64,000 nucleotides of DNA from Fodinibius halophilus. Its GTDB lineage: Bacteria > Bacteroidota > Rhodothermia > Balneolales > Balneolaceae. The position numbers were made by a program, and so were the translations under genes. Shown one piece after another: positions 4,976 to 19,061 of this stretch. The notes beneath the pieces are model-generated. The model saw nothing but the letters and a program-made list of their open reading frames with translations. It was not told the DNA's origin and ran no database searches. Position 1 is the first letter of the stretch, and every line of letters starts with the position of its first letter. The DNA is taken from the NCBI RefSeq assembly GCF_011059105.1, contig NZ_JAALLS010000008.1:62001-126000 (forward strand), read 5' to 3'.

Positions 4976-5008
4976 AACTTTCATTTCAGCTAAAGATCTT
5001 GTAATTAG

Positions 5009-5037
5009 TTGTAAGATTATCTGCAGACATAAATTTG
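5009..5037 (+). promoter_or_regulatory. Candidate housekeeping promoter of the sigma-kinase operon
   Basis: TAAATTTG at 5030-5037 is an exact match to the Bacteroidota -7 box TAnnTTTG, 50 nt before the sigma gene start; a weak TTG sits at 5009-5011. The GTCCCC-N16-CGYA motif of the lipoprotein genes is absent here, so the sigma gene does not look autoregulated. Confidence 0.4.
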
Positions 5038-5086
5038 TATCATTTGCGATATAGCTAGTGCTATTAACATTTCATCTTATTTACCG

Positions 5087-5644
5087 ATGGGGAAGAAAAA
5101 AGTTACCAGGCTGTTAAAAGACCTAAGAGATCCCGAAAATAAAAGTTATGATGAACTATTTTCCTTGATATATGGGGAGCTCAAGAGGTTAGCTTATTCA
5201 AAGCTTCAAAAAGAACGGAAAGATATTACGTTTACTGAAACGGAGCTGGTGCATGAAGTATATCTAAAGATGATTGATCAGACTCAAATACAGGCCAATG
5301 ATAAAAACCACTTTATGGCCATAGCTGCGCGATGCATGCGCCAAATACTTATCGATCATGCCCGCAAAAAGAAAGCTGAAAAACGAGGTGGTAATAAAAA
5401 AGACGTCACCTATATTGATGAGCTTCTTAAACAACACCATAAGACTGAAGAACTCATTAATCTTGATAAGGAGATCAATAAACTCGCAGAACTTGACCAG
5501 CGAATGGCCGATGTTGTAGTACTTCGGTTCTTTGGACAAATGAGTGTGACAGCCACCGCAGAGGTATTGGACATATCAGAGCGAACGGTCAAAAGAGATT
5601 GGGCCAAAGCGCGAGGTTGGCTTTATAAAGAATTAAAAGGGTAA
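5087..5644 (+). CDS. ECF-family RNA polymerase sigma factor, kinase-linked
   Basis: 185-aa sigma-70 family protein of ECF size. Region 2 spans about residues 20-95 (LVHEVYLKM, FMAIAARCMRQILIDHARKK) and region 4.2 about 125-180 with an HTH (SVTATAEVLDISERTVKRDW). The acidic stretch that usually precedes LVQEVF in ECF region 2.2 is replaced by a Thr-rich T48-F-T50-E-T52-E segment. The kinase gene begins 23 nt downstream and no anti-sigma gene is present. In studied sigma-kinase pairs such as EcfP/PknT of Vibrio the kinase activates the sigma by Thr phosphorylation; the same control here is inference. Probable targets are the eight units at 8.6-18.9 kb that share a promoter. Confidence 0.9.
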   Translation: MGKKKVTRLLKDLRDPENKSYDELFSLIYGELKRLAYSKLQKERKDITFTETELVHEVYLKMIDQTQIQANDKNHFMAIAARCMRQILIDHARKKKAEKRGGNKKDVTYIDELLKQHHKTEELINLDKEINKLAELDQRMADVVVLRFFGQMSVTATAEVLDISERTVKRDWAKARGWLYKELKG

Positions 5645-5667
5645 TTTCTTAAAAGCTTCACTATTCT

Positions 5668-8487
5668 ATGAAGCAACATCAATGGAAAAAGGTTAACAAG
5701 ATCGTTGATACCGCACTTGATCTTGATAAAAAAGAAAGAGCAACCTACATAGAAGAACGTTGTAAAGACGACAAAGAGTTAAAACAGCAAGTTACTCAAC
5801 TGCTTGCCTCTATTGAGAAGTCGGGTACTGAAAATTTTTTAGGAACTCCTGAAACCTATCTCAGCGATATAGCCGGTGAACTATCTCCCGGCGATGCGCC
5901 TATGGCTTCGTCTATGATTGGCCAACAAGTGGGCAACTACAGCCTTCATGAACTTATTGGCCATGGTGGAATGGGATCTGTCTTTAAAGGCGAGCGCGCC
6001 GATGAGGCCTATAAAAAGGAAGTAGCTGTTAAAATATTGCGGCGTGGCATGGACACCCCTTCGAACATTGCTCGGTTTAAACGCGAGCGTAATATCCTGG
6101 CAAATCTGGACCATTCCAATATTGCACGTTTGCTTGATGGAGGGCTTACCGAAGAGGGACTGCCCTACCTTGTCATGGAATATGTAGATGGAACACCCTT
6201 GCTTGAGTACTGTAATAAACATCAACTTTCAGTTGAAAAACGTTTAGCTTTATTTGAACAAGTCTGCTTTGCCGTTCAACATGCCCACCAAAATGCGATT
6301 ATCCATCGAGATCTAAAGCCTTCAAACATTCTGGTGAATACCCAAGGAGATGTCAAAGTGCTGGATTTCGGTATTGCTAAACTTATAGAACCGGATGATG
6401 AGGGAGCCTCCTTTCAAACCCGCACCGGTGCCCGTATGCTAACACTGGGCTATGCAGCACCCGAGCAGTTAGCAAGCCAAACCATAACAACGGCTACCGA
6501 TTCGTATGTACTTGGCATTCTATTATATGAACTCTTAGCCGGGGTGCATCCATTTGAGATGGATGAGAAGAGCTTTGTAGAGATCGAAGAACAGATACGA
6601 GAACAACGTCCATATAGCCCTTCTCAAAGGTTTTCTGATTTATCTACCAATAACCAGCAGCAAATTGCAGAAAAACGTAAGACTTCGCCTGCAACTTTGG
6701 TTAAGACTCTGAAAGGCGATCTTGATGCCATTGTGATGAAAGCCTTGCGCAAAGAGCCAAACAGCCGGTACAGCTCGGCCGAGCAGCTGCTGGAAGATCT
6801 TAACAGGCAAAAAACGAATCTTCCTATAATTGCCCGGGAAGATACCTTTCGCTACAATGCCTCCAAGTTTATAAAGCGACACAAAACCGGGCTTTCTGTA
6901 GCAGCAGGTTTTGTACTACTACTTATTGGCTTTACTGCTTTTTATACCTGGCAAATTGCACAAGAACGTAACAAAGCACAGTTAGAGGCCCGAAAATCCC
7001 AAGAGGTAAGCACCTTTCTTACGGATATGTTCAGGGCCAGTGACCCCACATTTAATCCTAAAGATACTGTTACCGCCGCAACCTTTTTAAAGCGAGGACA
7101 AGAACGTGTAGAACAACTTGATGGGCAACCTGAAGTGCAGGCAGAACTACTGCGGGTTATTGGCAGAGCACATATACATATTGGAAACTATGATAAAGCA
7201 AAAAAACCTTTATATCGAAGCCTATCTATCCGTAAAAGAATTTTTCAAAACCCACATAGCGAGATTGCTTCGAGCCTACGTGAAGCCGGGTATTTACAGC
7301 GGAAGATAGGAAATTTTGCTGAGGCAGAATCTCTTAGTAGAGAAGCTTTAGATATCCAGCTAGCAACACTGGGCCCTGATCATAAGAATACCGTCAAAAC
7401 TCAGAGCCAACTTGCCTTTGTACTAAGTCGGCAAGGGAAATATAAAGCTGCCGACTCCCTTTATGCGGAAACCTTACCCAAGCAACGTAAACTCCTCTCC
7501 ACTTATCATCCCAATATCGGCACAACCCTCAGTGATTGGGCCCTTACCCTACGACAACTTGGCAAATTCCAAAAAGCAGATACCCTGAAACAGCAGGCTC
7601 TGGAAGTTTGGGAACAGAACTATGGTCGTATTCATCCTCAAATATTACAGGGCTTAAACGACCTTGCAGTAGTCAAAGAAAAGATGGGGAACTTTGCGGC
7701 TGCCGATTCTTTGTATCAAGAAGCACTAGAAATCAATGACAAACTGTACGACAAAGCTACTCCCTCAACTGCACAGCTTCTAAATAATATTGGTACTACA
7801 AATATTAAAGCCGGACGCTATGAAGATGCAGAACCCTATCTTAAAAAAGCTTTAGATATGCGAAAAGAGCTCTTGCGTCCCAACCATCCATCGATGGCTG
7901 AAAGCTATATCAATTTGGGCCGGCTTTATGTTGATCAAAACAAATTTGCCAAAGCCCAACCTTTAATTCAGAAAGCCCTGAAAATTGATACAGAACAGCA
8001 TGGCAAGAATCATCCTTATGTTGCCGGTGACCTGAGAAACCTGGGTTTTATTGCCAAACAGCGCGGACAATATGAGCTGGCAGAACGCCATTTCAAGAGA
8101 AGCCTTGAAATCATGAAAAAAACGCTCTCATCGGATCATCCCTCAGTGGCCGTTTCACTGGCATCGTTAGGTAAAGTTTATCTACTGCAAGGCAACCACG
8201 AAAAAGCAAAACCACTGCTACAAGAAGCACTGGAAATCAGGCAAAAAAAGTTTGATCAGGGTGATGTTAGAATCGCTCAATCTCAAGTACCGCTGGGAGC
8301 AACTTTCATAAAAAGCAATAATTATGAAGAGGCAGAAAAGCTACTTAAAGCAGGGTATCAAACCCTTAAAAAAGAACGGGGACCACAGCATGATGCGACT
8401 AATGATGCCAAAGAATACCTTGTTGAACTTTATAACAGTTGGGGAAAACATGACTTGGCAAACGAGTACAAAGTAAAAAGTCCATAA
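5668..8487 (+). CDS. Membrane Ser/Thr protein kinase with C-terminal TPR sensor domain
   Basis: 939 aa. Residues 1-60 form a short helical domain (W6, C32, LL motif) also found alone in the protein at 18689. Residues 91 to about 380 are a Hanks-type kinase: glycine loop GHGGMGSV (98-105), K122, HRDLKPSN with D215, DFG at 233, APE at 264. One TM helix (about 405-430) follows, then roughly ten tetratricopeptide repeats to the end, predicted to be outside the cytoplasm and to sense a ligand or partner. Kinase motifs are intact, so activity is expected. Paired with the ECF sigma 23 nt upstream and ended by a strong terminator. Confidence 0.93.
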   Translation: MKQHQWKKVNKIVDTALDLDKKERATYIEERCKDDKELKQQVTQLLASIEKSGTENFLGTPETYLSDIAGELSPGDAPMASSMIGQQVGNYSLHELIGHGGMGSVFKGERADEAYKKEVAVKILRRGMDTPSNIARFKRERNILANLDHSNIARLLDGGLTEEGLPYLVMEYVDGTPLLEYCNKHQLSVEKRLALFEQVCFAVQHAHQNAIIHRDLKPSNILVNTQGDVKVLDFGIAKLIEPDDEGASFQTRTGARMLTLGYAAPEQLASQTITTATDSYVLGILLYELLAGVHPFEMDEKSFVEIEEQIREQRPYSPSQRFSDLSTNNQQQIAEKRKTSPATLVKTLKGDLDAIVMKALRKEPNSRYSSAEQLLEDLNRQKTNLPIIAREDTFRYNASKFIKRHKTGLSVAAGFVLLLIGFTAFYTWQIAQERNKAQLEARKSQEVSTFLTDMFRASDPTFNPKDTVTAATFLKRGQERVEQLDGQPEVQAELLRVIGRAHIHIGNYDKAKKPLYRSLSIRKRIFQNPHSEIASSLREAGYLQRKIGNFAEAESLSREALDIQLATLGPDHKNTVKTQSQLAFVLSRQGKYKAADSLYAETLPKQRKLLSTYHPNIGTTLSDWALTLRQLGKFQKADTLKQQALEVWEQNYGRIHPQILQGLNDLAVVKEKMGNFAAADSLYQEALEINDKLYDKATPSTAQLLNNIGTTNIKAGRYEDAEPYLKKALDMRKELLRPNHPSMAESYINLGRLYVDQNKFAKAQPLIQKALKIDTEQHGKNHPYVAGDLRNLGFIAKQRGQYELAERHFKRSLEIMKKTLSSDHPSVAVSLASLGKVYLLQGNHEKAKPLLQEALEIRQKKFDQGDVRIAQSQVPLGATFIKSNNYEEAEKLLKAGYQTLKKERGPQHDATNDAKEYLVELYNSWGKHDLANEYKVKSP

Positions 8488-8520
8488 TTGGTAAAATATT
8501 ACCACAACCAGATGACTTAA

Positions 8521-8557
8521 AACAAAAGCGCTACCCCCCTCGGATAGCGCTTTTGTT
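8521..8557. terminator. Bidirectional terminator between kinase gene and minus-strand lipoprotein gene
   Basis: Perfect 13-bp stem, AACAAAAGCGCTA (8521-8533) with TAGCGCTTTTGTT (8545-8557), flanked by A and T runs on both sides. It lies between two convergent genes and can serve both. Confidence 0.85.
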
Positions 8558-8591
8558 AGTTTTAGTGCTCAAGTTTAAATAAAAATCCACT

Positions 8592-9179
8592 TTAGTTTTC
8601 ACTAAAGACAATACCATAAGGCTGCGTAAGCACTTCGCGTTCAGATTCACCCGGCAAGTGAGGGTAAATGACTACCAGTGTCTCTCCTGCTGATAAATCG
8701 TTTTGCGACAATGCCTTATTCTCTATTTCAGAAGGTGCCCACATAGACCCGGGATACCATTGGGTAGAAGGAACCCATATAGGACTGTCGTTCGCCCACT
8801 CTGAGCCACGAAACCAGGGTGAGTCGGGATACATCTCTGCAGTAGAGAGACCCGCCGACAGCTCCTCCAGATTGGTACCCACTGGATCGCTGGTTAAGCG
8901 ATTGGTTACTTCGCCATTTTGGACTTGAAATACCGACAGAACTATCTCCCCTTCGAAAGAGTCCGGCTTGGGTTCCAAACCCAAAAGGATATTATCATTA
9001 TAAAAATCCCAGGTGAAATCGCTGGGGGTATTATTAACAATCTGGCTGAGCTCTGATGTCGGGGACGTCGTAAAATCCAATGGTTTCAACTCATCTTCTG
9101 CACCCGTTCCTGAATCCGAGCAAGCCCCTGCCAGTAATGCACTACACAGTAAAAAAGTTATAAGTATCGATTTGTTCAT
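8592..9179 (-). CDS. Small secreted lipoprotein, function unknown (regulon member)
   Basis: 195 aa. SpII signal peptide with cleavage before Cys20 (ALLAGACSDS). The mature protein is acidic; Trp/Pro-rich segments follow in the second half (YPDSPWFRGSEW, IWVPSTQWYPGSMW). No family recognised. It has its own ECF-type promoter at 9220-9248 and shares the terminator at 8521-8557. The shared promoter and cell-envelope location link it to the six lipoproteins upstream on the same strand. Confidence 0.8.
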   Translation of the reverse strand: MNKSILITFLLCSALLAGACSDSGTGAEDELKPLDFTTSPTSELSQIVNNTPSDFTWDFYNDNILLGLEPKPDSFEGEIVLSVFQVQNGEVTNRLTSDPVGTNLEELSAGLSTAEMYPDSPWFRGSEWANDSPIWVPSTQWYPGSMWAPSEIENKALSQNDLSAGETLVVIYPHLPGESEREVLTQPYGIVFSEN

Positions 9180-9219
9180 AACAGTAAAAATTTTTCATTA
9201 ATGGTTGTGCATAGTACCC

Positions 9220-9251
9220 TGCGAAAGAGCAACCAAAAAGGGGACAAATAA
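9220..9251 (-). promoter_or_regulatory. ECF-type promoter (regulon copy 1)
   Basis: On the minus strand TTTGTCCCC (GTCCCC at 9245-9240), 16 nt, then CGCA (9223-9220), 40 nt before the start codon. Same layout as the six other minus-strand copies and the one plus-strand copy. Confidence 0.8.
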
Positions 9252-9284
9252 AAAACCCGCAGCATTTGAACCACTGCGGGTTTT
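9252..9284 (-). terminator. Terminator of the IPT/PD40 lipoprotein gene
   Basis: Stem AAAACCCGCA (9252-9261) with TGCGGGTTTT (9275-9284). On the minus strand the T-run continues straight into the TATTTGTCCCC promoter box of the next gene. Confidence 0.8.
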
Positions 9285-9313
9285 ACAATTACAGATCTGA
9301 AAGAGAACAATTT

Positions 9314-10981
9314 CTATTTAACCATCCCCCAATAAGGACTGCCATCAGTCTTGTTATTAGATAAGCTTGTAGCAGTACCGCTCCCGTCACTGGCTATCTT
9401 ATAGATTCTTCCATTTCTGCTAAATACTAGTCTTGTTCCATCTGGTGACCAGCTGGGATATGAATCATAGGGCGAAGAATTATCTGTAATTCGTTGAGCA
9501 CCTCCTCCCTGGGCCCCGGCAACATAAATTTCGAAATCATTATCCGCATTATTATTACTTACAAACGCAATCTTAGAGCCATCGGGCGACCAACGAGGCT
9601 CAGTATTCTCTGCATCATTTTCAGTAATCGCTTGAATACTATGCCCTTGCACTGTTACCGTAAAGATATCATCTCCCTTTGGAGGATCATTTTTATCATA
9701 CAACCGATCACTGTAAAATACTATTTTTGTACCATCCGGAGACCAACTGGGATACTTATCATTCCCTTTATCATCTGTTAAAGGCGTCTGATTGCTACCG
9801 CTGCTACTCATGGTATAAATATGTAGATATCCATGCTGCCCAACCGCATCAAAAGCAATTTGGGAATCGTCCGGCGACCAACTGGCATGCATCTCATAAA
9901 GATTACTGACGTGGGTTAACCGCTGGATATCAGAACCATCAGCATTCATTTTATACAGATCATAATCTCCATTCCTGTCGCTGCTAAACACAATCGTTTT
10001 CCCATCATTAGATATAACCGGACTACCATCGATGGCACTATTGTTTGTCAACCGGGTATGATTACTACCATCAGCATCCATGATATATATTTCCTGGTTT
10101 CCATCCCGGTCACTTTCAAAGACAATCTTACTCTTGGCCTTGGCCTGGCAACTTACCTCAAAAGTGGTTTTCGTAGTATCTCCGGCTGCAATGCTTAATG
10201 TTCGTGGATTGTTACCACTTAAACTACAGTTGTTTGCCAGTCCGGTGAGCTCCAGGTCATGTGTCCCTTCCTCAATATCTGTCATATACCGTTCTGTATT
10301 AATGCCTATTGTTTGACCGGAAGAACCATCCAACGATACTGTGTACCCGTCACTATCTTTATCACTGCCTGATGTCTGTGTTATTATTTGGATCGTTCCA
10401 TCGGTTATCACATCAAAATCGGGGCCAGTGGTTGACTTCTGCTCTACCGTCACTTTTATGGGACCGTCAGCAGCTCCCTGGGGCACCTCGGTCAGCAGCT
10501 GATCTTCAGTCGCTCCTTTCACCGTTGCACTGGTACCATTAAAAGAGATACTATTTTCCGAAGTCGTTGCACTAAAGTTCATCCCCTTAATGGTTACCTC
10601 GGTACCCACCGTACCGCTGTCAGGGTTTACCGAACTGATGCCAGGGGCTTTTGTCTCAACCGTAAACTGGGGTCCCGTAGCTGTTTCCCCGCCTACCGTT
10701 ACTTTTACCGGTCCGCTGGAGGCTCCTTCCGGTACTTCAGCTTGTATCTGGTCTTTGGTGGCACTTATGACCGTGGCTGAAGAGGAACCAATACCCACGC
10801 TCATATCTGAGGCATGCGGCTGGAACCCTTTTCCTTTGACAGTTAGCATGGTGCCCGGCGGACCACTGTCGGGTTGAATATTTGTGATCTCAGGCTTAGG
10901 CGTACTATTTCCATTACCTCCGCACGATATAACGGTTATAACCATGATGAATAGTATGGATAATTGTAATAGTCGTCTCAT
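9314..10981 (-). CDS. IPT/TIG-domain lipoprotein with TolB-like PD40 beta-propeller
   Basis: 555 aa. SpII signal (VITVISCGGN, Cys20). Two IPT/TIG immunoglobulin-like domains at about residues 33-112 and 113-195 (PDSGPPGT, GKGF; PDSGTVGT, GMNF), a spacer with two cysteines, then about six PD40/WD40-like TolB repeats (residues about 285-555; recurring SPDG/SPDD and ITDN/LTNN motifs). A surface-anchored propeller on a stalk, probably a binding protein; the ligand is unknown. The first 195 residues closely match those of the protein encoded at 16323-18446. Single-gene unit with its own promoter and terminator. Confidence 0.87.
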   Translation of the reverse strand: MRRLLQLSILFIMVITVISCGGNGNSTPKPEITNIQPDSGPPGTMLTVKGKGFQPHASDMSVGIGSSSATVISATKDQIQAEVPEGASSGPVKVTVGGETATGPQFTVETKAPGISSVNPDSGTVGTEVTIKGMNFSATTSENSISFNGTSATVKGATEDQLLTEVPQGAADGPIKVTVEQKSTTGPDFDVITDGTIQIITQTSGSDKDSDGYTVSLDGSSGQTIGINTERYMTDIEEGTHDLELTGLANNCSLSGNNPRTLSIAAGDTTKTTFEVSCQAKAKSKIVFESDRDGNQEIYIMDADGSNHTRLTNNSAIDGSPVISNDGKTIVFSSDRNGDYDLYKMNADGSDIQRLTHVSNLYEMHASWSPDDSQIAFDAVGQHGYLHIYTMSSSGSNQTPLTDDKGNDKYPSWSPDGTKIVFYSDRLYDKNDPPKGDDIFTVTVQGHSIQAITENDAENTEPRWSPDGSKIAFVSNNNADNDFEIYVAGAQGGGAQRITDNSSPYDSYPSWSPDGTRLVFSRNGRIYKIASDGSGTATSLSNNKTDGSPYWGMVK

Positions 10982-11026
10982 AATATTTTTCTTGGAGTAT
11001 GATTAAAAATCCTTGACTTAGCACTC

Positions 11027-11056
11027 TGCGTATTACATTGCAAAGAGAGGCCAAAT
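11027..11056 (-). promoter_or_regulatory. ECF-type promoter (regulon copy 2)
   Basis: Minus strand: TTTGGCCTC (GGCCTC at 11052-11047), 16 nt, CGCA (11030-11027), 45 nt before the start of the gene ending at 9314. The -35 box is the most divergent in its centre, but the spacing is exact. Confidence 0.75.
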
Positions 11057-11061
11057 AAAAA

Positions 11062-11083
11062 AGGGCCACAATCAAGTGGCCCT
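11062..11083 (-). terminator. Terminator of the first collagen-like gene
   Basis: Stem AGGGCCAC (11062-11069) with GTGGCCCT (11076-11083), loop of six, followed on the minus strand by TTTTTTATTTG, which is also the upstream edge of the next promoter. Confidence 0.75.
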
Positions 11084-11101
11084 AAGAATTTCCATAAACA
11101 A

Positions 11102-11255
11102 GGGGGCTTTGCAAAACTATTCACATCTTGTCATGCTGAACCATGTACTGAGCCTGTCGAAGTATCTCTTCCAGCATCTCATAAACAGTTATTAATCTTA
11201 AAACCGAGATTCTGAACTGAATTCAGGATGACATGTCCGGTTTTACAAAGCTCCC
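11102..11255. repeat. MITE-like element with nested inverted repeats
   Basis: 154 nt flanked by imperfect terminal inverted repeats, GGGGGCTTTGCAAAAC (11102-11117) and GTTTTACAAAGCTCCC (11240-11255). A second inverted pair lies inside, CTTGTCATGCTGAA near 11128 and TTCAGGATGACATG near 11222. No coding capacity. It sits 9 nt beyond the stop codon of the collagen-like gene and before its terminator, so it is transcribed as a 3' UTR hairpin. Confidence 0.65.
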
Positions 11256-11264
11256 AAACAAGCT

Positions 11265-12146
11265 TTACTTTGGTATTCCAAAGTACCTCTTTACCTGTTC
11301 ATAATCATTCAAATCAATTGGTAGTTCTCCGGCCTTGGCTTTAGTTTTCAGATGTTTTCCTCCGGGAATAAGCACATAACGAAATTCACTACTCGTTCCA
11401 AGAGCATTAGGAAGCGTACCGGTAGCATCAGGATTCATATAGGCAATCCGCAACTGTTGAGGATTTAGCTGAAAAAAGTAACTGTAATTGGGATTTCCGG
11501 GGCTACCTGCCTTAGCTAACGGTAAGGAATACACCGATGGGGTATTAAAATTGGTATACACCTTAACAATTCCCTTATCAATAATATCCTGAGTCATCGC
11601 ATTTGCGGAAATATCAAAATAGCGATATTTAGTTGTGGTTTGGGTACTCCCATTCCATTGCGGTGGATTTACCCAACTAGAATACATTACATTTGCAGTA
11701 CCTTTTAAATTGATGGGCGTTCCCCAACTGTTAGCTGTTTTGGGACCATACAGGTCGAAAGTGCTTTTATTTAGGTAATAATCCCCTTCTTTACCCAATG
11801 AGGATTGGGGAGCCGAACTACCGGAATAGATTTGGCTGCCATCTTTGCCATCTTGGCCGGCAGGGCCCTGCAGACTTATAGGGGTGCCCCAACCCTGATC
11901 ATTCTTCGGACCATACATTTCACCGGTACTAATATCTAAATAGTAATCCCCATTACTCCCTTTACTATTGCTTGGTGTTCCCTGTCTGGAATAGATCTTA
12001 CTTCCGTCATCGCCCGCCGGGCCTACGGGGCCTTGCTCTCCTTTGGGCCCCTGCGGACCTTGTTCACCGGCCGGACCTTCACAACCAACAAACAGAGTTA
12101 AAATTGTGATTAAAAATAATGTTAACACTCGTGACAATCGTCTCAT
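11265..12146 (-). CDS. Collagen-like lipoprotein (paralogue 1 of 3)
   Basis: 293 aa. Signal peptide ending at the lipobox LFVGC; the mature N-terminus is itself the first collagen triplet ([17 protein letters not shown]), about ten Gly-x-y repeats. Two copies of a roughly 45-residue module follow (GDYYLD...YGPK...GWGTP) joined by a second short Gly-x-y run (GPAGQDGKDG). The last 130 residues are a unique beta-rich domain. Probably a trimeric surface stalk; ligand unknown. It shares its N-terminal half with the two genes upstream but has its own C-terminal head. Single-gene unit. Confidence 0.85.
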   Translation of the reverse strand: MRRLSRVLTLFLITILTLFVGCEGPAGEQGPQGPKGEQGPVGPAGDDGSKIYSRQGTPSNSKGSNGDYYLDISTGEMYGPKNDQGWGTPISLQGPAGQDGKDGSQIYSGSSAPQSSLGKEGDYYLNKSTFDLYGPKTANSWGTPINLKGTANVMYSSWVNPPQWNGSTQTTTKYRYFDISANAMTQDIIDKGIVKVYTNFNTPSVYSLPLAKAGSPGNPNYSYFFQLNPQQLRIAYMNPDATGTLPNALGTSSEFRYVLIPGGKHLKTKAKAGELPIDLNDYEQVKRYFGIPK

Positions 12147-12191
12147 AGTTATTATCTCTTTTATTGTTATTAAAGCTTCTACCTAGCATAA

Positions 12192-12221
12192 TGCGGGAGA
12201 TCACTCAAAGAGGGGACAAAT
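12192..12221 (-). promoter_or_regulatory. ECF-type promoter (regulon copy 3)
   Basis: Minus strand: TTTGTCCCC (GTCCCC at 12217-12212), 16 nt, CGCA (12195-12192), 45 nt before the start codon. Confidence 0.8.
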
Positions 12222-12223
12222 AA

Positions 12224-12253
12224 AAAAGGCCCTGCAAAATTGCAGAGCCCTTT
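12224..12253 (-). terminator. Terminator of the second collagen-like gene
   Basis: Hairpin around CCTGCAAAATTGCAGAG with flanking AGG/CCT pairs (one bulge), followed on the minus strand by T6 that runs into the next promoter. Confidence 0.65.
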
Positions 12254-12274
12254 AGAATCAAGTTTGAAACCTAA

Positions 12275-13138
12275 TCACTTAAAGTTATAATACTCAAGAA
12301 AGGATTGTTGACCTAACACCTCCATCCCTTTAAGAGTCAAAGTTCCGGTATCAGCAACCTCTGTATTGTCTTGGGTATTATTGGCCTCTGTACGAATGAT
12401 CTCAATTTGGTCATAAGGGATACCCGTTTTATTCGGCTCAGTATTTATGCGGAAATACCCACTCCCATTAACAAAATTGTGCTCAACAGAATACTGGATA
12501 TTTCGAGCACGCCCTGGCACCGAATAATAAATCTGGTTGCTCCCGGTATCATACATTAAGTACACCGTCCAAGAACTCTGTTTCATTTCTGTTTCTGTTA
12601 AACTGCTAAACACCGCAACAAACTGTGGATCTGTACTAAAGTCATGCTGAGGATAAATGTATCGCGTAACATTGGCATTGCCGTCGGCCCCTTTCAAGTT
12701 TACCGCGGTGCCCCACCCCTGATCCGTTTTGGGACCGTACATGTCATAGTTGGATTTGTCTAAGTAAAAGTCGCCATTCGCTCCCAATGAAGGGTCTGGT
12801 GCACCGGATCCCCCATGAAATTGGCTGCCATCTTCACCGTCTTGGCCCATCAATACCATAATTGGATTTCCCCAACCATTGTTCTCTTTGGGGCCATAAT
12901 ATTCACCCGTAGTAGTGTCTAAATAGTAATCACCCTCACTGCCAATATCAGAAGCGGGGGCTCCAGAACCGGCATACATCATACTCCCGTCATCGCCGGC
13001 TGGGCCTACCGGTCCTTCTGGACCTTCAGGGCCTTCAGGACCTTGAGCTCCTTGCTCCCCCGCCGGACCTTCGCACCCTAAGAATAGTGGCAAAGTTGCT
13101 ATTAAAAACAATATTAACACTCGTGACAATCGTCGCAT
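12275..13138 (-). CDS. Collagen-like lipoprotein (paralogue 2 of 3)
   Basis: 287 aa with the same architecture as its neighbours: signal peptide, lipobox (LFLGC), collagen run with GPEGPEGPEGPVGP, two GDYYLDTTTGEYYGPK-type modules, then a unique C-terminal domain of about 130 residues beginning [14 protein letters not shown]. The first part of that domain (NVTRYI.P.HDFS) is shared with paralogue 3, so these two are the closest pair. No enzyme motifs. Its own promoter and terminator make it a separate unit. Confidence 0.85.
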   Translation of the reverse strand: MRRLSRVLILFLIATLPLFLGCEGPAGEQGAQGPEGPEGPEGPVGPAGDDGSMMYAGSGAPASDIGSEGDYYLDTTTGEYYGPKENNGWGNPIMVLMGQDGEDGSQFHGGSGAPDPSLGANGDFYLDKSNYDMYGPKTDQGWGTAVNLKGADGNANVTRYIYPQHDFSTDPQFVAVFSSLTETEMKQSSWTVYLMYDTGSNQIYYSVPGRARNIQYSVEHNFVNGSGYFRINTEPNKTGIPYDQIEIIRTEANNTQDNTEVADTGTLTLKGMEVLGQQSFLEYYNFK

Positions 13139-13181
13139 AGTTGTAAAGCTTTATTCAGATTTTGTAGTCCTACATAGTAAA

Positions 13182-13211
13182 TACGAAATGCAACAGAGAA
13201 GGGGCTCAAAT
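13182..13211 (-). promoter_or_regulatory. ECF-type promoter (regulon copy 4, variant)
   Basis: Minus strand: TTTGAGCCCC (13210-13201), 15 nt, CGTA (13185-13182). The C-run is shifted by one base, but the TTTG-to-CGYA distance (21 nt) equals that of all other copies. Confidence 0.65.
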
Positions 13212-13216
13212 AAATA

Positions 13217-13250
13217 AAGCCCGCGACATTTCTCAGTCACGGACTCAAAT
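13217..13250 (-). terminator. Imperfect terminator-like hairpin
   Basis: GCCCGCGAC pairs with GTCACGGAC with two mismatches, and a T-rich run follows on the minus strand. It lies 3' of the gene remnant at 13285-13368, at the place where a lost gene's terminator would be. Confidence 0.4.
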
Positions 13251-13284
13251 TACCACTAAGGCATCTTTTCTATTCTACCGGGCT

Positions 13285-13368
13285 TCAGGAAGGGGATCCC
13301 TGAACACCGTTGCTTGCAGAACCATCGGCATTTATAATAAAATTATCGAGATCTCTACCACGATTAAA
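13285..13368 (-). pseudogene. C-terminal remnant of a lost lipoprotein gene
   Basis: On the minus strand a short open stretch ends with RGRDLDNFIINADGSASNGV plus a few residues and a TGA stop at 13287-13285. It has the composition of a secreted beta-rich repeat protein (compare NADGSD in the PD40 protein) but no start and no upstream body. It is followed by a terminator-like hairpin and then a regulon promoter, as every intact gene in this array is. I read it as the tail of a deleted array member. Confidence 0.45.
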
Positions 13369-13369
13369 A

Positions 13370-13399
13370 AACGGCCCTGCCTTGTAAGACAGGGCCGTT
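13370..13399 (-). terminator. Terminator of the third collagen-like gene
   Basis: Perfect 10-bp stem AACGGCCCTG (13370-13379) with CAGGGCCGTT (13390-13399), followed on the minus strand by T6. Confidence 0.85.
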
Positions 13400-13424
13400 A
13401 CTACAATAACGCTGCTAGTCTATA

Positions 13425-14303
13425 CTATTTACTATTAAACCCAAAATATTCAGCTATGGCTTGATAGTCAGAAGTGTCAAGATCCTCCGGAATGGTAGCT
13501 CCCGGCTTTGCCTTGGGCAGATTTTCATTATTATTTGCTCTGACCTGTACAAACTCTATCCGATCATAGGCTTCACCCACCGCATTTTGATCGCAGGCAA
13601 GAGCAAAGACAACTTCTTGTCTGCTGTCGTAATAATAATGCTGGCTAAAGTAATAAGTTTGGTTGTTCTTACCATACCCTGGTACCGACCAATAGGCTTC
13701 ATCCACATTGGGACTTGATTGTCCAACAAAGTAGATTAACCAGGCACTTTCTTTCATTTCAGTTTCACTTTGAACGGGAATATTCAACGGATGGTAATTC
13801 TGGCTGCTAAAGTCATGTCCCGGAAAAATATAGCGTGTGACATTGGCATTGCCGTCGGCTCCCTTCAGATTAATCGGTGAACCCCATCCCTGATCTGTTT
13901 TAGGACCATACATATCATAGTTGGATTTATCCAGATAAAAATCACCATTTTGGCCTTTTGAAGAAGATGGTGCACCGGTTCCGGCATAAATCTCGCTGCC
14001 ATCTTCACCGTCTTTTCCCATTAATACCATCAGGGCATTACTCCCCCAACCGTTGTCATCCTTGGGGCCATACATCTCACCGGTATTGGTATTAATATAG
14101 TAATCACCATTGCTGCCGGTATTACTGGCAGGCGCTCCCGTTCCGGAATAGATCATACTCCCGTCATCGCCGGCCGGACCTACCGGACCCTGTGGCCCTT
14201 CCGGGCCTTGCGGACCTTGTTCGCCGGCCGGGCCTTCACATCCCGCAAACAGCGTCAAAGTCGCAATCAAAAATAACGTCATTACTCGTGATAATTGTCT
14301 CAT
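13425..14303 (-). CDS. Collagen-like lipoprotein (paralogue 3 of 3)
   Basis: 292 aa. Signal peptide [20 protein letters not shown], lipobox before Cys22, collagen run [20 protein letters not shown], two [16 protein letters not shown] / [16 protein letters not shown] modules and a unique C-terminal domain ([20 protein letters not shown] onward). It ends with the motif [11 protein letters not shown], similar to DYEQVKRYFGI at the end of paralogue 1, so the heads share a terminal helix even where the rest differs. Single-gene unit in the promoter-sharing array. Confidence 0.85.
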
Positions 14304-14346
14304 AGTTACTATATATTTTATTTAGTATTACTCTTACTTTGAAAAC

Positions 14347-14376
14347 TGCGTATTACTTTTCAAAGAGGGGACAAAT
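14347..14376 (-). promoter_or_regulatory. ECF-type promoter (regulon copy 5)
   Basis: Minus strand: TTTGTCCCC (GTCCCC at 14372-14367), 16 nt, CGCA (14350-14347), 43 nt before the start codon. Confidence 0.8.
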
Positions 14377-14380
14377 AAAA

Positions 14381-14408
14381 TAGGACTCTGTAAAATTACA
14401 GAGTCCTA
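14381..14408 (-). terminator. Terminator of the HExxH lipoprotein gene
   Basis: Perfect 12-bp stem TAGGACTCTGTA (14381-14392) with TACAGAGTCCTA (14397-14408) and a four-base loop; TTTTATTTG follows on the minus strand. Confidence 0.85.
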
Positions 14409-14456
14409 TACCAAAAAGTTGGGAAAATACTCACTAATTAAGCAGCATCTTACTGC

Positions 14457-16202
14457 TTAATTACACTGAACACTATCAAGCATATTACTGGGTGCCGGTG
14501 TACTTGCGTCAGTTTCGGTAAGTGACCAACTGCCGCGGCCACTTTTGCCAATCCATCCCCAGCTTCCAGAATCAAATGTGCCGTTTGAAGAATAAAAACT
14601 AAAGTCAAACCAACCGGTCTCATCCTCATTTGTGAAGATCCCTACATACGAATTGCCATCCCATATACCGGCAAAGACACCTCTACTGGCATAATCACCA
14701 ACCAAAAACAAGTCTCTTGCCAACAATTTAATCTCCCCATACGAACTATCATATGTACCATCATAAACTGTCCGGTTGTTATCAATAATTTGAGTCTTAG
14801 AGCCATCTCGAGTAAAATTAGATAACTGTGTGACAGATTTTGATGTTCTGGATCCATTCCAAGACCCGCTTAGAGGATCTCCATGCCATGCCCATTCACC
14901 ATTAAATTGGCCAAATTGTGGGGCGTTAAAACGAAATATCCCACTGCGATCTCCATTTGTAAAAATTCCAGATACACAATTCTCTTTTACTTTACCCAAC
15001 ATAATACCTTGGTCGGCATAGTCGCCCACCACATATTTATCAAATTGATGCAACCGGAGCTCCCCAAAATCGGTATCCCACTTTCCGGAAAAATCAACAG
15101 CCCGAGAGGTGATGGTAAACTGGACCTGGTTGCTTGTTTTGCCATAAGAAGACGTTACTGTTAATGGCCCTGTAGTTGCACCAATGGGCACTCTCATCTC
15201 TATCCAGTTACAATCGCTTTGGACAATATTAGTTGGTTCGGTCACGTATGATGCTTTTGTACCGTTAAAACTAACTTCCGGAGTCGACCAGTTTAAACTG
15301 GAACTGCATTTAAACTGATATCGAAATCGTTGTCCCTCTAAGTAAATGGTATCTCCCACAGCAGCTTGCATATGCGGTTGCCCGGGCCACTTATGCTTTA
15401 ATGATGTTTCAAAAATAGTGGGCTCTACATTCATCATCTGGGTAGTTATAACTCCAGCCTGTTGTAGATCATTAATGGAAGTTCCTACCGGCAGGCGATG
15501 AAAAAGAGTCCATGCTGCTTTTTCATAAGCTGGCAGTGGTGGCTGTACACTTTTTTGAGTCATTATAGCATCGGGAAAACTGGGATGGCCACCAGCACCT
15601 AACATCACATGACCAAGTTCATGGACAGGTACTCCCTCATTCCATTGATTTATACCACTCTTAAAGCTATTACTTAAAACAATATATCCCCCGGTAATAA
15701 TAAGTCCCCCTCCGTTGGACCAGTTAGCTGATTGCGGTCTGGAACTGCCATAGCTCGTGTTACCAAACTCTACCGTAATTACAGTATCTTTATCTCCTTG
15801 GAATGTTGTACTGTTATGGAACCTGGCAGTGAATTTACCACCGGTATAATCCTGTACGGCCTGCTGTAGCAAGCTCTCAACTTCTTGTTTACCTTGTGTT
15901 CCATGTCCATTTTTGAACCAAAAGATAGGATCTTTGGTAATCCTGCTTGTTTTTAGAAAACGGCTACCATCAAAATCAGCATGAAGCATCATCGCGAGGA
16001 AATATTCCCCGGCCTTTTCATTAAAACCTGAGGGTATGGTAACTTGCTTACCATTTACCGTAACGACCTGTTGTGAACCGGATGACATCGGTACAGCTTC
16101 TACCCCTTCAGACTGTACTGGCGTTGTCGGTTCACTATGATTTGAGCTGCATGAAATTACAATTAGAATTATTAATGGAAATAAAAAAAGTAGTTTTCTC
16201 AT
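14457..16202 (-). CDS. Lipoprotein with HExxH metallopeptidase-like and IPT/TIG domains
   Basis: 581 aa. Lipobox ILIVISC (Cys18). An N-terminal domain contains HELGHVMLGAGGHP near residue 195, a zinc-metallopeptidase HExxH with a downstream His, close to the metzincin/matrixin pattern but with two extra residues before the third His. An IPT/TIG domain follows (about 280-370; residues VTEP, TGPLTV). Two tandem copies of a beta-rich module end the protein, each opening GxxD..[FY]GE(L/I).L and containing VGDYA and GIFTN (about 373-450 and 475-550). Probably an envelope-anchored protease or binding protein; activity is unproven. Own promoter and terminator. Confidence 0.8.
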   Translation of the reverse strand: MRKLLFLFPLIILIVISCSSNHSEPTTPVQSEGVEAVPMSSGSQQVVTVNGKQVTIPSGFNEKAGEYFLAMMLHADFDGSRFLKTSRITKDPIFWFKNGHGTQGKQEVESLLQQAVQDYTGGKFTARFHNSTTFQGDKDTVITVEFGNTSYGSSRPQSANWSNGGGLIITGGYIVLSNSFKSGINQWNEGVPVHELGHVMLGAGGHPSFPDAIMTQKSVQPPLPAYEKAAWTLFHRLPVGTSINDLQQAGVITTQMMNVEPTIFETSLKHKWPGQPHMQAAVGDTIYLEGQRFRYQFKCSSSLNWSTPEVSFNGTKASYVTEPTNIVQSDCNWIEMRVPIGATTGPLTVTSSYGKTSNQVQFTITSRAVDFSGKWDTDFGELRLHQFDKYVVGDYADQGIMLGKVKENCVSGIFTNGDRSGIFRFNAPQFGQFNGEWAWHGDPLSGSWNGSRTSKSVTQLSNFTRDGSKTQIIDNNRTVYDGTYDSSYGEIKLLARDLFLVGDYASRGVFAGIWDGNSYVGIFTNEDETGWFDFSFYSSNGTFDSGSWGWIGKSGRGSWSLTETDASTPAPSNMLDSVQCN

Positions 16203-16234
16203 AATTGATGCTTAGTTAAATTTAGATAGTAACC

Positions 16235-16264
16235 TGCGTAATCCATTACTAAAACAGGACAAAT
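16235..16264 (-). promoter_or_regulatory. ECF-type promoter (regulon copy 6)
   Basis: Minus strand: TTTGTCCTG (GTCCTG at 16260-16255), 16 nt, CGCA (16238-16235), 32 nt before the start codon. Confidence 0.75.
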
Positions 16265-16269
16265 AAAAA

Positions 16270-16299
16270 ACCCACTGCAGTACGAGAACCACAGTGGGT
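16270..16299 (-). terminator. Terminator of the three-IPT propeller gene
   Basis: Stem ACCCACTG (16270-16277) with CAGTGGGT (16292-16299), followed on the minus strand by TTTTTTATTTG. Confidence 0.75.
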
Positions 16300-16322
16300 G
16301 AGAATAGTTGAATTATGAGCTT

Positions 16323-18446
16323 TCATTGCTGTTCACACTCTAGGGTCATACCGGTAATCCACATATCTTTGCCCCCCTTGGGATCAATATTGTCATCATC
16401 GCTGCGGCCCGGCCAACTTGAAGTTGTCACACCCAATGTAAACAGATGCACTTCGCCATTTGCATCACGATACGTTTCAACTGCCGAAGGAAAGCCTCGT
16501 CCTTTCTTATCATTCTCAAATTCAAAGAACGTAGACTTTTTACTACCATCTATAAAAAGTGGTCTCCCGCCATCTGCATAAATGCCAAGATATGGGAGTC
16601 CCCCGATCTCAGATGCATTTTGGCCTACAAGAACAACTCCTCCACCGGGTATTCGCACGCCACCGTTGTATTTGGTGGATCCGCTATCATCAAACTTTTG
16701 CTGGTGGACCCATTGCTCAGCCCCACCAGAGCCCAACCGCTGCACATAGGCATCCTTGATGTATACATTTTTATTTGCTTCAAGGGAGGTACCTGTATTT
16801 CCATATACAACCGCTCCGCCATCTGGCATAGGAATAGGCTGTTTGATTTGTCGCGTCACCTGTTCACTCGATGCTTCAATCTGTAAACTACTGCTAAGTC
16901 TGGCGAACACGGTATTGCCATCATCATTTCTTGCTCCCAGGAATACTTGGCTTTGGTCATCGGTAGCTATGCTATAAGGTGCCGTATAAGCCTCTATTTG
17001 TTGTACGCTCTGCAGGGTCCCATTTTTCTGGAATTTGGCAATAGCCACATCATGAGATCCCTTATCGGGCTCTTTATTAGTTGGTGTGAAAGGACCACTC
17101 ATTCTGGCAGAGACCAATATTTCACCCGAAGGAAGTACTGCAACTGTTTCATGATTGAGCTCATCAAGATCAGGCGATCCAAATTGCTGGGCCCATCCAA
17201 GACTTCCGGAACCGGCATCCAGGCGGGCTAACACAATATCCCTGCCTCCTGTATTAGAATTCCCGTCTTTAAGCGTTGAAAAGTGATACTTCAGTTTTGC
17301 TTCTCCCAAGTCCTGATCAGAAACTCCCCGCTCTCCAACAATATACACGCTATTGGCATCCACTTCGATACCTCTCCATGTTGTGGATTTGAGCTTTGTA
17401 TCAAAATTTGATTTCCAGACCTCATCCCCATTGGAATCATATTTTGCTGCAACTCCTCGATCACGCAGTACCACGTATAGATTTCCATTGGAATCTATTG
17501 CCATATCCTGTGATTTATCATCTTTATCTGAGGTCGTCAACCCTTGGCTAACCCACTGCAGATTAGCATCAAGCTGTATATCATTACCATAACAAGCCTG
17601 GAGGTTCGTAATAATATCCAAAGGCATACCTTCGGATATCTGTTCCCCGACAATAACCTTAACAGGACCGCCGGTTACCCCCTTGGGTATAACCGTATAA
17701 AGCGTATCACTCTTGGCACTGTCAGCATTGGTCATAGTACCGCCAATAGAGATCTTATTTTTTGAAAGTTCATCCGCAAAATACTTCCCCTTTATAGCCA
17801 AAGTAGCTCCCTGTACAACCGTATCGGGCTTTATAGCCTTAATCTTTGGTGCCAACACATTGAAATCAGGTCCCATAGCAGATTTTTGATTTACGGTAAC
17901 CTTCACCGAGCCATCACTGGCATTATCGGGCACCGTTGTCTTTAGCTGATCATCCGAAGCATCATTAACAGCGGCATCGGCTCCATTGAACGATATAGAA
18001 ATGTCTGCAGGGTTTGAACTAAAGTTCATCCCTTTGATAGTTACGTCAGTCCCAATCATACCACTGTCCGGCTCTACCGAACTGATGCCCGGCGCTTTGG
18101 CTTCAACGGTAAACTGTGGGCCTGATACCGTCTCCTGACCAACGGTAACCTTTACCGGTCCGCTGGATGCCCCTTCCGGTACTTTCGTTTTTAACTCAGA
18201 TTCACTGGCACTTTCGACAGGAGCACTCGTGCCCCCAATAGAAATAGTATTATCAGTATTCTGTGGACTAAACCCTTTCCCCTCTATTGTCAGCAACGTA
18301 CCAGGCGGCCCACTGTCTGGCTGAATACCCGTTATTTCAGGATTGGGCGTACCGTTGCCCCCTCCCCCGCACGAGGCGACAAACAGCATCACAATAAAAA
18401 AAGCAACTGGTCTCAATGAATGTTTGATATCGTATAGTCTTTTCAT
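16323..18446 (-). CDS. IPT/TIG lipoprotein with C-terminal SBBP-like beta-propeller
   Basis: 707 aa. Signal peptide with lipobox LFVASC and a Gly run after the Cys. Three IPT/TIG domains at about residues 36-115, 116-196 and 198-275 (PDSGPPGT, PDSGMIGT, PDTVVQGA). The C-terminal 420 residues form a beta-propeller-like repeat region (DSNGNLYVV, LDAGSGSLGWAQQFG, PSGEILVSARMSG) of the SBBP/PQQ-like kind. The first two IPT domains are nearly the same as in the protein encoded at 9314-10981, but the head is different. Longest leader of the regulon (about 105 nt after the promoter). Confidence 0.85.
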   Translation of the reverse strand: MKRLYDIKHSLRPVAFFIVMLFVASCGGGGNGTPNPEITGIQPDSGPPGTLLTIEGKGFSPQNTDNTISIGGTSAPVESASESELKTKVPEGASSGPVKVTVGQETVSGPQFTVEAKAPGISSVEPDSGMIGTDVTIKGMNFSSNPADISISFNGADAAVNDASDDQLKTTVPDNASDGSVKVTVNQKSAMGPDFNVLAPKIKAIKPDTVVQGATLAIKGKYFADELSKNKISIGGTMTNADSAKSDTLYTVIPKGVTGGPVKVIVGEQISEGMPLDIITNLQACYGNDIQLDANLQWVSQGLTTSDKDDKSQDMAIDSNGNLYVVLRDRGVAAKYDSNGDEVWKSNFDTKLKSTTWRGIEVDANSVYIVGERGVSDQDLGEAKLKYHFSTLKDGNSNTGGRDIVLARLDAGSGSLGWAQQFGSPDLDELNHETVAVLPSGEILVSARMSGPFTPTNKEPDKGSHDVAIAKFQKNGTLQSVQQIEAYTAPYSIATDDQSQVFLGARNDDGNTVFARLSSSLQIEASSEQVTRQIKQPIPMPDGGAVVYGNTGTSLEANKNVYIKDAYVQRLGSGGAEQWVHQQKFDDSGSTKYNGGVRIPGGGVVLVGQNASEIGGLPYLGIYADGGRPLFIDGSKKSTFFEFENDKKGRGFPSAVETYRDANGEVHLFTLGVTTSSWPGRSDDDNIDPKGGKDMWITGMTLECEQQ

Positions 18447-18559
18447 AAGAAAAAAATTTAATTAGCCGTTTAGCAATTGAATGTAATAACTAATAAATGC
18501 CACATTGTCCCTGTATTCAACCACTAAATGCGTTTTTAATTATCACCTTACATACAACA

Positions 18560-18589
18560 TACGTGCTGATTTATAAAGAGGGGACAAAT
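18560..18589 (-). promoter_or_regulatory. ECF-type promoter (regulon copy 7)
   Basis: Minus strand: TTTGTCCCC (GTCCCC at 18585-18580), 16 nt, CGTA (18563-18560), 113 nt before the start codon. It lies back to back with the plus-strand copy at 18627-18655. Confidence 0.75.
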
Positions 18590-18626
18590 AAAAATAATCT
18601 CTTATAATCTCTTGTTTTGGAAGAAA

Positions 18627-18655
18627 TTTGACCTCTGTTCGTTCAAGTTCCCGCA
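18627..18655 (+). promoter_or_regulatory. ECF-type promoter (regulon copy 8, plus strand)
   Basis: TTTGACCTC (GACCTC at 18630-18635), 16 nt, CGCA (18652-18655), 33 nt before the start of the 60-aa gene. Spacing is identical to the minus-strand copies. Confidence 0.7.
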
Positions 18656-18688
18656 TGTAATAGTAAAGAGGACAAACTATTTGTACTT

Positions 18689-18871
18689 ATGGAAAAACAA
18701 CGTTGGCAACGGATAGAAAGAATTATTGAAGAAAGTTGGACATTTGAGACTTTACAAGAGAAGAAAGCACATGCTAAAAAAGCATGTAATAACAATACGC
18801 AGCTTTACAAAGAGGTGATAGCACTATTAAAAGGAATACGACATGCAGAAAGAGATGGGTTCATGGAGTAG
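18689..18871 (+). CDS. Stand-alone copy of the kinase N-terminal domain (60 aa)
   Basis: 60-aa charged helical protein that aligns along its whole length with residues 1-58 of the Ser/Thr kinase encoded at 5668. Shared positions include W6, I12, the Cys at 33 (kinase C32), LxxxVxxLLxxI and a final F[LM]. It has no kinase domain or TM segment. A regulon-type promoter lies 33 nt upstream. Because the kinase domain N-terminus may be where the sigma or another partner docks, this could be a feedback or decoy protein; that role is inference. It could also be the remnant of a second kinase, but no kinase sequence follows the stop. Confidence 0.7.
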   Translation: MEKQRWQRIERIIEESWTFETLQEKKAHAKKACNNNTQLYKEVIALLKGIRHAERDGFME

Positions 18872-19061
18872 GGTCGTATTCACATTAGAATAGCATTTCT
18901 TTCAATTGTCTTAATTACGTCCTTACCCCTTTACCAACTTTTGGATAGTCCAAAACTCATGTAATTGGCATCCCTTCTATTTAAAATAGAGATAGACTTT
19001 CTTTACAGTAAATATTCTACTTTCTTACTACAGAATTACAACTCAAAAACAGATTTAACAT

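Follow-up and report, generated by a model that had tools for sequence, protein, structure and literature searches.

Extracytoplasmic function (ECF) sigma factors that are switched on by a Ser/Thr kinase have been described in the ECF43 systems EcfK/PknS of Xanthomonas citri and EcfP/PknT of Vibrio parahaemolyticus, as excerpts of four papers report (PMC13147305; PMC8999054; PMC8103513; PMC6653060). According to the excerpts on EcfP, this sigma factor is inactive until one Thr, at the position equivalent to the DAED motif, is phosphorylated (PMC8999054; PMC8103513). For X. citri, excerpts report a QATE motif with phospho-Thr51 in EcfK against an ECF43 consensus of QTTA, a fourth-position acid kept by 15.8% of ECF43, and a kinase, PknS, whose periplasmic part is rich in tetratricopeptide repeats (TPRs) and whose residues 1-81 are invisible, are predicted to form three to four helices and are given no function in the passage concerned (PMC13147305). 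How kinase-activated ECF sigma factors find their kinase, stay off and are shut down is poorly known. Here we analyse a 64,000-nt stretch (the window, to which all coordinates refer) of the 4.19-Mb draft genome of Fodinibius halophilus, a salt-loving soil bacterium, in which an ECF sigma factor gene (5087..5644, plus strand) and a transmembrane Ser/Thr kinase gene with TPRs (5668..8487, plus strand) lie beside an array of seven lipoprotein genes, at whose far end stands a gene for a 60-amino-acid (aa) microprotein (18689..18871, plus strand). The eight array genes share a promoter motif of fixed spacing, and the microprotein is a solo copy of the N-terminal domain of the kinase (5668..5847, plus strand), a domain without a Pfam family that we name KNTD. 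We lean towards explaining the locus as a whole as a phosphorylation-switched ECF sigma module, and regard control of the array by the adjacent sigma factor and kinase as distinctly likely.

The sigma factor is of the type linked to Ser/Thr kinases (PF07638, E 4e-44; TIGR02999, E 3e-55), and its region 2.2 reads TETE-LVHE (residues 50-57), which places Thr52 at the phospho-Thr position of EcfK and EcfP. All 52 readable sigma factors of our set, the window's included, have Thr at this position, and 38 of the 52 have Glu or Asp at the fourth motif position, a larger share than the 15.8% reported for ECF43. The window's sigma factor thus has the xxTE form seen in EcfK (QATE in EcfK, TETE here), and resembles EcfP in its Thr but differs in keeping the fourth-position acid, which the STTA motif of EcfP lacks. 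Among the traits of ECF43 we found a PF07638/TIGR02999-type sigma factor, models within which ECF43 sigma factors presumably fall, an adjoining Hanks kinase gene and the Thr in region 2.2; the two DxxD acids are not both replaced by uncharged residues, since the first is lost and the fourth is Glu. Because this one trait is absent, as it is in EcfK too, and because formal membership rests on published group profiles, we say that the module appears to work like the kinase-activated ECF43-type sigma factors and do not file it as ECF43.

The kinase, recognised by domain searches, sequence motifs and a PDB match, consists of an N-terminal helical domain (residues ~1-60), a Hanks kinase domain (91-376; VAVK119, HRD213, DFG233 and APE), a transmembrane (TM) segment (407-425) and TPRs to the C-terminus. 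Its best PDB match was PknS of X. citri (9eed, E 6e-54) in one alignment over residues 5-380, with low identity at the N-terminus, and the alignment to the next match, PknB, began only at residue 88. The PknS-like order of N-terminal helical domain, Hanks domain, TM and TPRs beyond the TM is therefore present, and a preliminary description of the locus, in which the kinase senses an envelope signal through its TPR part and switches the sigma factor on, is borne out as far as the TPR part does lie beyond residues 407-425. By analogy with EcfK/PknS and EcfP/PknT, the kinase would span the inner membrane and keep its TPR half on the non-cytoplasmic side, and a signal would lead it to phosphorylate Thr52, upon which the sigma factor would bind RNA polymerase. 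The sigma factor would read a -35 TTTGTCC and a -10 CGCA set 21 nt apart, recognition being presumed from the observed motif and its association with these loci, and would switch on the neighbouring lipoprotein genes from one promoter each. The same promoter type would drive the 60-aa KNTD copy; if KNTD is the hold of the kinase on the sigma factor, the free copy could compete for the sigma factor and so end the response.

The promoter motif stands out clearly from chance. The window holds 11 copies of TTTG-N21-CGYA; 100 dinucleotide shuffles gave 4.6 +/- 2.1, and none reached 11. Eight of the 11 sites are those of the array (minus strand 9220, 11027, 12192, 13182, 14347, 16235 and 18560; plus strand 18627). 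An exact site lies within 160 nt upstream of seven of the 52 called genes of at least 100 aa in the 64 kb, all seven being array lipoproteins, while each other spacing from 12 to 31 gave 0 or 1 before the same genes and no enrichment; the remaining three sites (14647, 41247 and 47825) have no called gene of at least 100 aa starting within 160 nt downstream. When the 60-aa gene is counted all 8/8 units carry the motif, and shuffling the bases of their upstream regions 20,000 times never yielded more than 2/8. A chance origin is thus rejected by both kinds of shuffle. These counts uphold the preliminary description in its claims that eight units share this motif and no other spacing, that in seven of them a GTCCCC-like box lies 16 nt ahead of CGYA, and that a sigma factor and a TPR kinase adjoin the array with no other sigma gene in the window (none was found there by PF07638 and PF04542 searches); an ECF-type promoter, a cognate-looking sigma-kinase pair and surface lipoproteins as targets are likewise supported.

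In the order of the window, the minus-strand promoters and their genes are TTTGTCCC..CGCA (9220..9248), with TTTG 69 nt ahead of the start of a 195-aa lipoprotein without a family (8592..9179); TTTGGCCT..CGCA (11027..11055), before a lipoprotein with two TIG/IPT domains and a PD40/TolB-like propeller (9314..10981); TTTGTCCC..CGCA (12192..12220), before a collagen-like lipoprotein (11265..12146) whose matches to Scl/Lcl were weak and under the cut-off; TTTGAGCC..CGTA (13182..13210), before a second collagen-like lipoprotein (12275..13138); TTTGTCCC..CGCA (14347..14375), before a third (13425..14303); TTTGTCCT..CGCA (16235..16263), before a 581-aa lipoprotein without a family that carries an HExxH motif, HELGH (14457..16202); and TTTGTCCC..CGTA (18560..18588), with TTTG 142 nt ahead of the start of a lipoprotein with three TIG/IPT domains and an SBBP propeller repeat (16323..18446). 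The microprotein gene has TTTGACCT..CGCA (18627..18655) on the plus strand.

The three collagen-like and the two TIG lipoproteins are paralogous, and a T-run (at least 4 T within 14 nt) precedes 12 of 32 sites (window, L084-L086, L088-L090 and L183) against a background of 10.7%, as would be expected if the motif were a mere relic of the duplication of a cassette of gene, terminator and spacer, and no promoter at all. We consider this highly improbable, given that the motif also precedes non-homologous genes, including the microprotein gene and some kinase genes, and that across species the bases between -35 and -10 change but their number does not. The T-runs of the window (9220-18588) form the tails of terminator-like hairpins, so that terminator and promoter are almost fused.

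The spacing recurs in relatives. In 40 regions of ~20 kb around homologous sigma genes in other genomes, the N21 motif precedes 29 of 80 lipoprotein genes, and any other spacing from 10 to 35 precedes 0-3; before the non-lipoprotein genes of the same regions N21 gave 10/485, inside the 0-13 range of the other spacings. Gene calls were automatic and genes below 100 aa were excluded from the counts; a simple lipobox rule served to pick lipoproteins; it left out a few (L103 6542 and L105 11037 were counted as other genes) and admitted at least one cytoplasmic-looking gene (L086 2828). Seven orthologous regions (L084-L090) have an exact N21 site before 19 of 25 lipoproteins (other spacings 0-3). 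Related genomes thus retain both the sigma-kinase pair and the motif, a check that the preliminary description had put forward. Across all 39 non-orthologous regions fetched, including six from the genome of the window, the figure is 13/66 (other spacings 0-3); an earlier, hand-picked subset of 18 regions had given 13/43. In one relative (G006; C1:971173, C2:122, C3:197197 and 198656) we observed two pairs of 29-nt promoter sequences, identical within each pair, before similar lipoproteins far apart, one at a contig start, which reflect either recent cassette copying or an assembly repeat.

The second main result concerns the microprotein, whose nature the preliminary description had overlooked: with it, an ON switch likely becomes a circuit with a feedback arm. 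Plain BLASTP of the microprotein against the kinase gave no link, and the homology appeared only in a profile search. A profile built from 45 kinase N-termini, with no microprotein included, was searched with hmmsearch against the 6,169 small open reading frames of the same regions; it matched the window's 60-aa protein (E 3.2e-11), six more proteins of 60-62 aa (E 1.6e-11 or better), an 86-aa protein after a kinase-less sigma gene (L050, E 6e-14) and a 47-aa frame (L085_1870, E 4.6e-6) that was excluded from the microprotein counts. Of 12 genomes searched in the genus, 10 have one stand-alone copy each, besides L050 and a stop-containing fragment in G010 (C1:1366510) that was not counted; G002 and G009 gave none. 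As a known domain the microprotein was rejected, with no significant match in Pfam, PDB profile or Foldseek searches: Pfam gave nothing for the window's copy at E up to 10 and weak hits only for other members (best E 0.0041), and the best PDB sequence profile match had E 0.029. Its structure model has three helices (pLDDT 83.5). It was also rejected as a zf-HC2 anti-sigma factor, having no match to that family, which was found in 0/7 genus genomes and 3/14 controls. Searches of the literature found no description of a stand-alone KNTD or of sigma-lipoprotein regulons in Balneolota.

The solo gene could in principle be a decayed remnant of the kinase gene with a chance promoter, and some loci look the part: G001 and G011 have only the solo domain where a full module stands elsewhere, one kinase of Aliifodinibius salipaludis is split, and decayed pieces of the domain occur in G002 and G010. 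We judge this very unlikely for the microprotein gene itself, whose length is held at 60-63 aa in 10 genomes and which in 10/10 of them has an N21 family promoter 62-95 nt before its start (seven TTTG and three NNTG, against a comparable background before non-lipoprotein genes of 10/485 for TTTG and 40/485 for NNTG). Between the window and G010, the sole pair with unsaturated sites, dN is 0.105 and dS 0.87 (dN/dS ~0.12), and the gene is under purifying selection. Among the pieces, the 47-aa frame of G002, between the gamma-glutamyltranspeptidase gene and the first lipoprotein, looks like a decayed microprotein copy, and in G010 (C1:1366211-1366632) a piece of a sigma gene and a piece of KNTD lie side by side with a TAA inside each, a decayed pair.

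Three lines of evidence suggest that KNTD binds the sigma factor: it belongs to kinases linked to sigma factors, a range that apparently extends to PknS; solo copies directly follow kinase-less sigma genes; and some genes that bear the domain, namely the clade-A microprotein genes and some kinase genes, have the promoter type of the sigma factor. The second line comes from two loci of a sister genus (L247:9052-9908 and L249:9280-10100), where the sigma gene is followed by a solo domain (68 and 59 aa), with no kinase and with an N21 promoter in the gap, and from L050:6289-7181 of the window's genome, where the sigma gene is followed by the 86-aa solo domain, again with no kinase, the gap holding AATGACC-N18-CGCC as read by eye. 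A fourth solo frame lies at a contig end (G096), where it could not be placed. We infer that KNTD may be a sigma-docking domain whose solo copy would give negative feedback. That the partner would inhibit is suggested by the arrangement, since negative feedback is usually laid out in this way, with a sigma factor raising the amount of its partner. Feedback of this kind on the sigma factor is a serious possibility for the microprotein, if a little short of an even chance. Somewhat more tentatively, the KNTD of sigma-linked Ser/Thr kinases might be an unrecognised anti-sigma-like domain, so that the kinase would both hold the sigma factor off and switch it on, and the solo copy, made from the sigma factor's own promoter type, would be a brake that is paired at some loci with a kinase-less sigma factor. 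The small proteins that come straight after the sigma genes of L247 and L249, with a family promoter in the gap, do recall the sigma/anti-sigma operons of class I (zf-HC2), but differ from them in that the microprotein lacks zf-HC2 or any other Pfam match and shares its sequence with kinase N-termini.

As the microprotein is homologous to a part of the kinase, it might instead bind the kinase, domain to domain, and tune its dimerisation or activity or serve as a positive adaptor. A domain detached from a receptor can in turn act on that receptor, and the checked genomes with solo domains also hold full kinases elsewhere; solo domains that directly follow sigma genes with no adjoining kinase (L247, L249 and L050) argue against it, and we think this reading rather unlikely. 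For docking on the sigma factor with feedback, several observations weigh on the other side. G002 has a sigma array but only the 47-aa solo piece, at the expected place and without a promoter. G001 and G011 keep the solo domain in a slot where no sigma factor, kinase or lipoprotein was called; it may serve other sigma factors or have another job, and action in trans is possible because other family sigma factors are present in those genomes. Foldseek with the microprotein model gave nothing below E 0.001 (best 2.9), and the best VIA-align Z was 4.8, a value common for helical bundles, with no anti-sigma protein among the 27 rows. No N21 site precedes the window's kinase gene and none was seen before its sigma gene, therefore the pair is not autoregulated through the motif. 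The gap between sigma and kinase genes is 13-43 nt in clade-A loci (clades are defined below), with a site in 0/12. In favour of docking, as part of the third line above, sites before the kinase gene itself were found at 4/15 clade-B, 4/15 other and 0/6 clade-C loci, and all 48 such gaps together held seven sites at N21, four at N22 and no more than two at any other spacing.

The motif is not of one kind. A set of 58 loose sites upstream of lipoproteins shows coupling between the third -10 base and the two bases that follow TTTG: TGTC goes with CGCA 26 to 2 and TGAG with CGTA 13 to 0 (Fisher test on the 47-site subset with C in third place, 19/1 against 6/21, p 6e-7). Sigma factors were sorted into clade A, to which that of the window belongs (SERTVKRDW), clade B (mostly SESTVKRDWMKARGWL) and clade C (RTxDRDW or RTxNRDW), and sites that fit no class were left unclassed. 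Near clade-A loci there are 24 A-type, 5 B-type and 1 unclassed site, and near clade-B loci 0 A, 8 B and 3 unclassed. In G007, where the adjoining sigma factor is of clade B, the microprotein promoter is B-type as well. TGAAC..CGCA was found at L046, L092 and L109, all with a SVSTVKRDWAKARGWL sigma factor, and once at a clade-B locus (L099); a fourth locus with that sigma factor, L107, lacks such a site. Beside sigma factors with other recognition helices, class A, B or C sites precede 0 of 21 lipoprotein genes, and one TGAAC..CGCA was seen. Class A sites further resemble one another in T-rich positions of the spacer and in a conserved stretch past the -10. This pattern suggests a natural promoter code, in which the spacing is common to all and each of several sigma clades has a coupled -35/-10 pair of its own.

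The code bears on the claim of 'one strict promoter', which is too simple as it stands. The promoter at 13182 had been noted as an exceptional eighth; its total spacing is indeed the same, but we reinterpret it as a TGAGC..CGTA variant of B type, as found near clade-B sigma factors. In a tree, the collagen-like gene that it precedes clusters with L084_14149, L085_5615 and L088_1017, which come from three other species; all four genes have CGTA promoters, the -35 of the relatives being listed as TGAGC, TGGGC and TGATC, and two more CGTA genes (L183_16228 and L090_3570) lie elsewhere in that tree. The collagen-like gene with TGAGC/CGTA probably answers to a sigma factor of a different clade.

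The label 'self-contained' is likewise not borne out as phrased. The window's genome has nine high-scoring PF07638 sigma factors, and all seven of its Pkinase genes over the cut-off adjoin a PF07638 sigma gene; two of the nine sigma genes (C1:364094 and C67:6289) have no adjoining kinase. The former (L046:9089-9661, on G000:C1) is a family sigma gene with neither a kinase nor a called solo domain alongside. The idea that the motif is exclusive to the window's sigma factor was rejected, as paralogous sigma loci have this spacing as well. Paralogous sigma factors might therefore share a broad promoter type, several of them serving the array, with the adjacent one not its main reader. In keeping with that reading, lipoprotein genes at two further sigma loci of this genome, C12 and C1, are likewise preceded by exact TTTG-N21-CGYA sites, the array promoter at 13182 belongs to the other class, and at C12 promoters of A, B and C types precede three collagen-like genes. 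Against this stand the coupling of the -35/-10 variants, which match the clade of the adjoining sigma factor, and the fact that four of the six TTTGTCC..CGCA sites of the genome lie in the array (one of the others precedes a collagen-like lipoprotein at the C12 locus and one lies within a coding frame), so that we consider sharing of this kind unlikely. The C12 locus itself (L045:5546-11666, G000:C12) has one sigma-kinase pair for its three collagen-like lipoproteins and three promoter classes.

For control of the array by its adjacent sigma factor, these data also hold contrary points. Clade-C loci have mixed classes, with four C sites (TGTCG type), one A, three B and three unclassed. The coupling is imperfect, as the promoter at 18560 joins a TGTCC -35 to a CGTA -10, which belong to different classes, and the microprotein promoter of G011 has TGAGC with CGCA. 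The classes were set after the sites had been viewed and orthologous loci share descent and are not independent, so the pattern is a description only. In addition, 53 of the 66 lipoproteins in the 39 non-orthologous regions have no exact site.

Scanned genome-wide, the motif exceeded its reversed-pattern control, but the excess was modest. In the window's genome TTTGNNCC-N17-CGYA gave 22 matches against 13, and TTTGTCCCCTCTTTG-N10-CGYA with up to 3 mismatches gave 6 against 4, five of the six in the array. Across 12 genomes TTTGTCC..CGCA gave 43 against 20 and TTTGAGC..CGTA 53 against 17; among the 30 sites of each with 3-kb loci (30/43 and 30/53), 12 and 8, respectively, lie before lipoproteins by the simple rule. 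With so modest an excess and so few sites before lipoproteins, much of the exact genome-wide matching is background, and the motif alone defines no regulon.

Compared with EcfK/PknS, the window's module has in common a sigma gene beside a kinase with N-terminal helices, a Hanks domain, a TM and a periplasmic TPR-rich part, and differs in its targets, which are lipoproteins here and a type VI secretion system in X. citri, in the nine paralogous sigma factors of its genome with promoter variants by clade, and in the stand-alone N-terminal copy, of which the excerpts on PknS make no mention. The clade-wise promoter variant, the lipoprotein arrays and the stand-alone domain are what sets the module apart from the known systems. 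A domain nameless in Pfam is common to kinases of the Balneolaceae and, by alignment, to PknS, and also occurs alone behind the promoter type of the sigma factor that it most likely binds; if the docking reading is right, the similar domain in Xanthomonas PknS means that the rule could hold for ECF43-type systems generally, and a protein of 60 residues makes both docking and feedback testable. The promoter code, for its part, precedes surface lipoproteins (collagen-like and TIG/propeller) in a little-studied phylum.

The module is flanked upstream by a tyrosine recombinase gene (4067-4975) and downstream by a gamma-glutamyltranspeptidase gene (19062-20780). The slot between these two genes (window 4975-19062; L222, L223, L226 and L224) differs by species, holding a full module, the microprotein only (G001 and G011) or a kinase only (G009). 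A. salipaludis, an isolate with the full module, is now named Fodinibius salipaludis (PMC12260241). In this species (L183:374-13147), a single array has two sigma-kinase pairs, the second kinase being split into frames of 465 and 363 aa.

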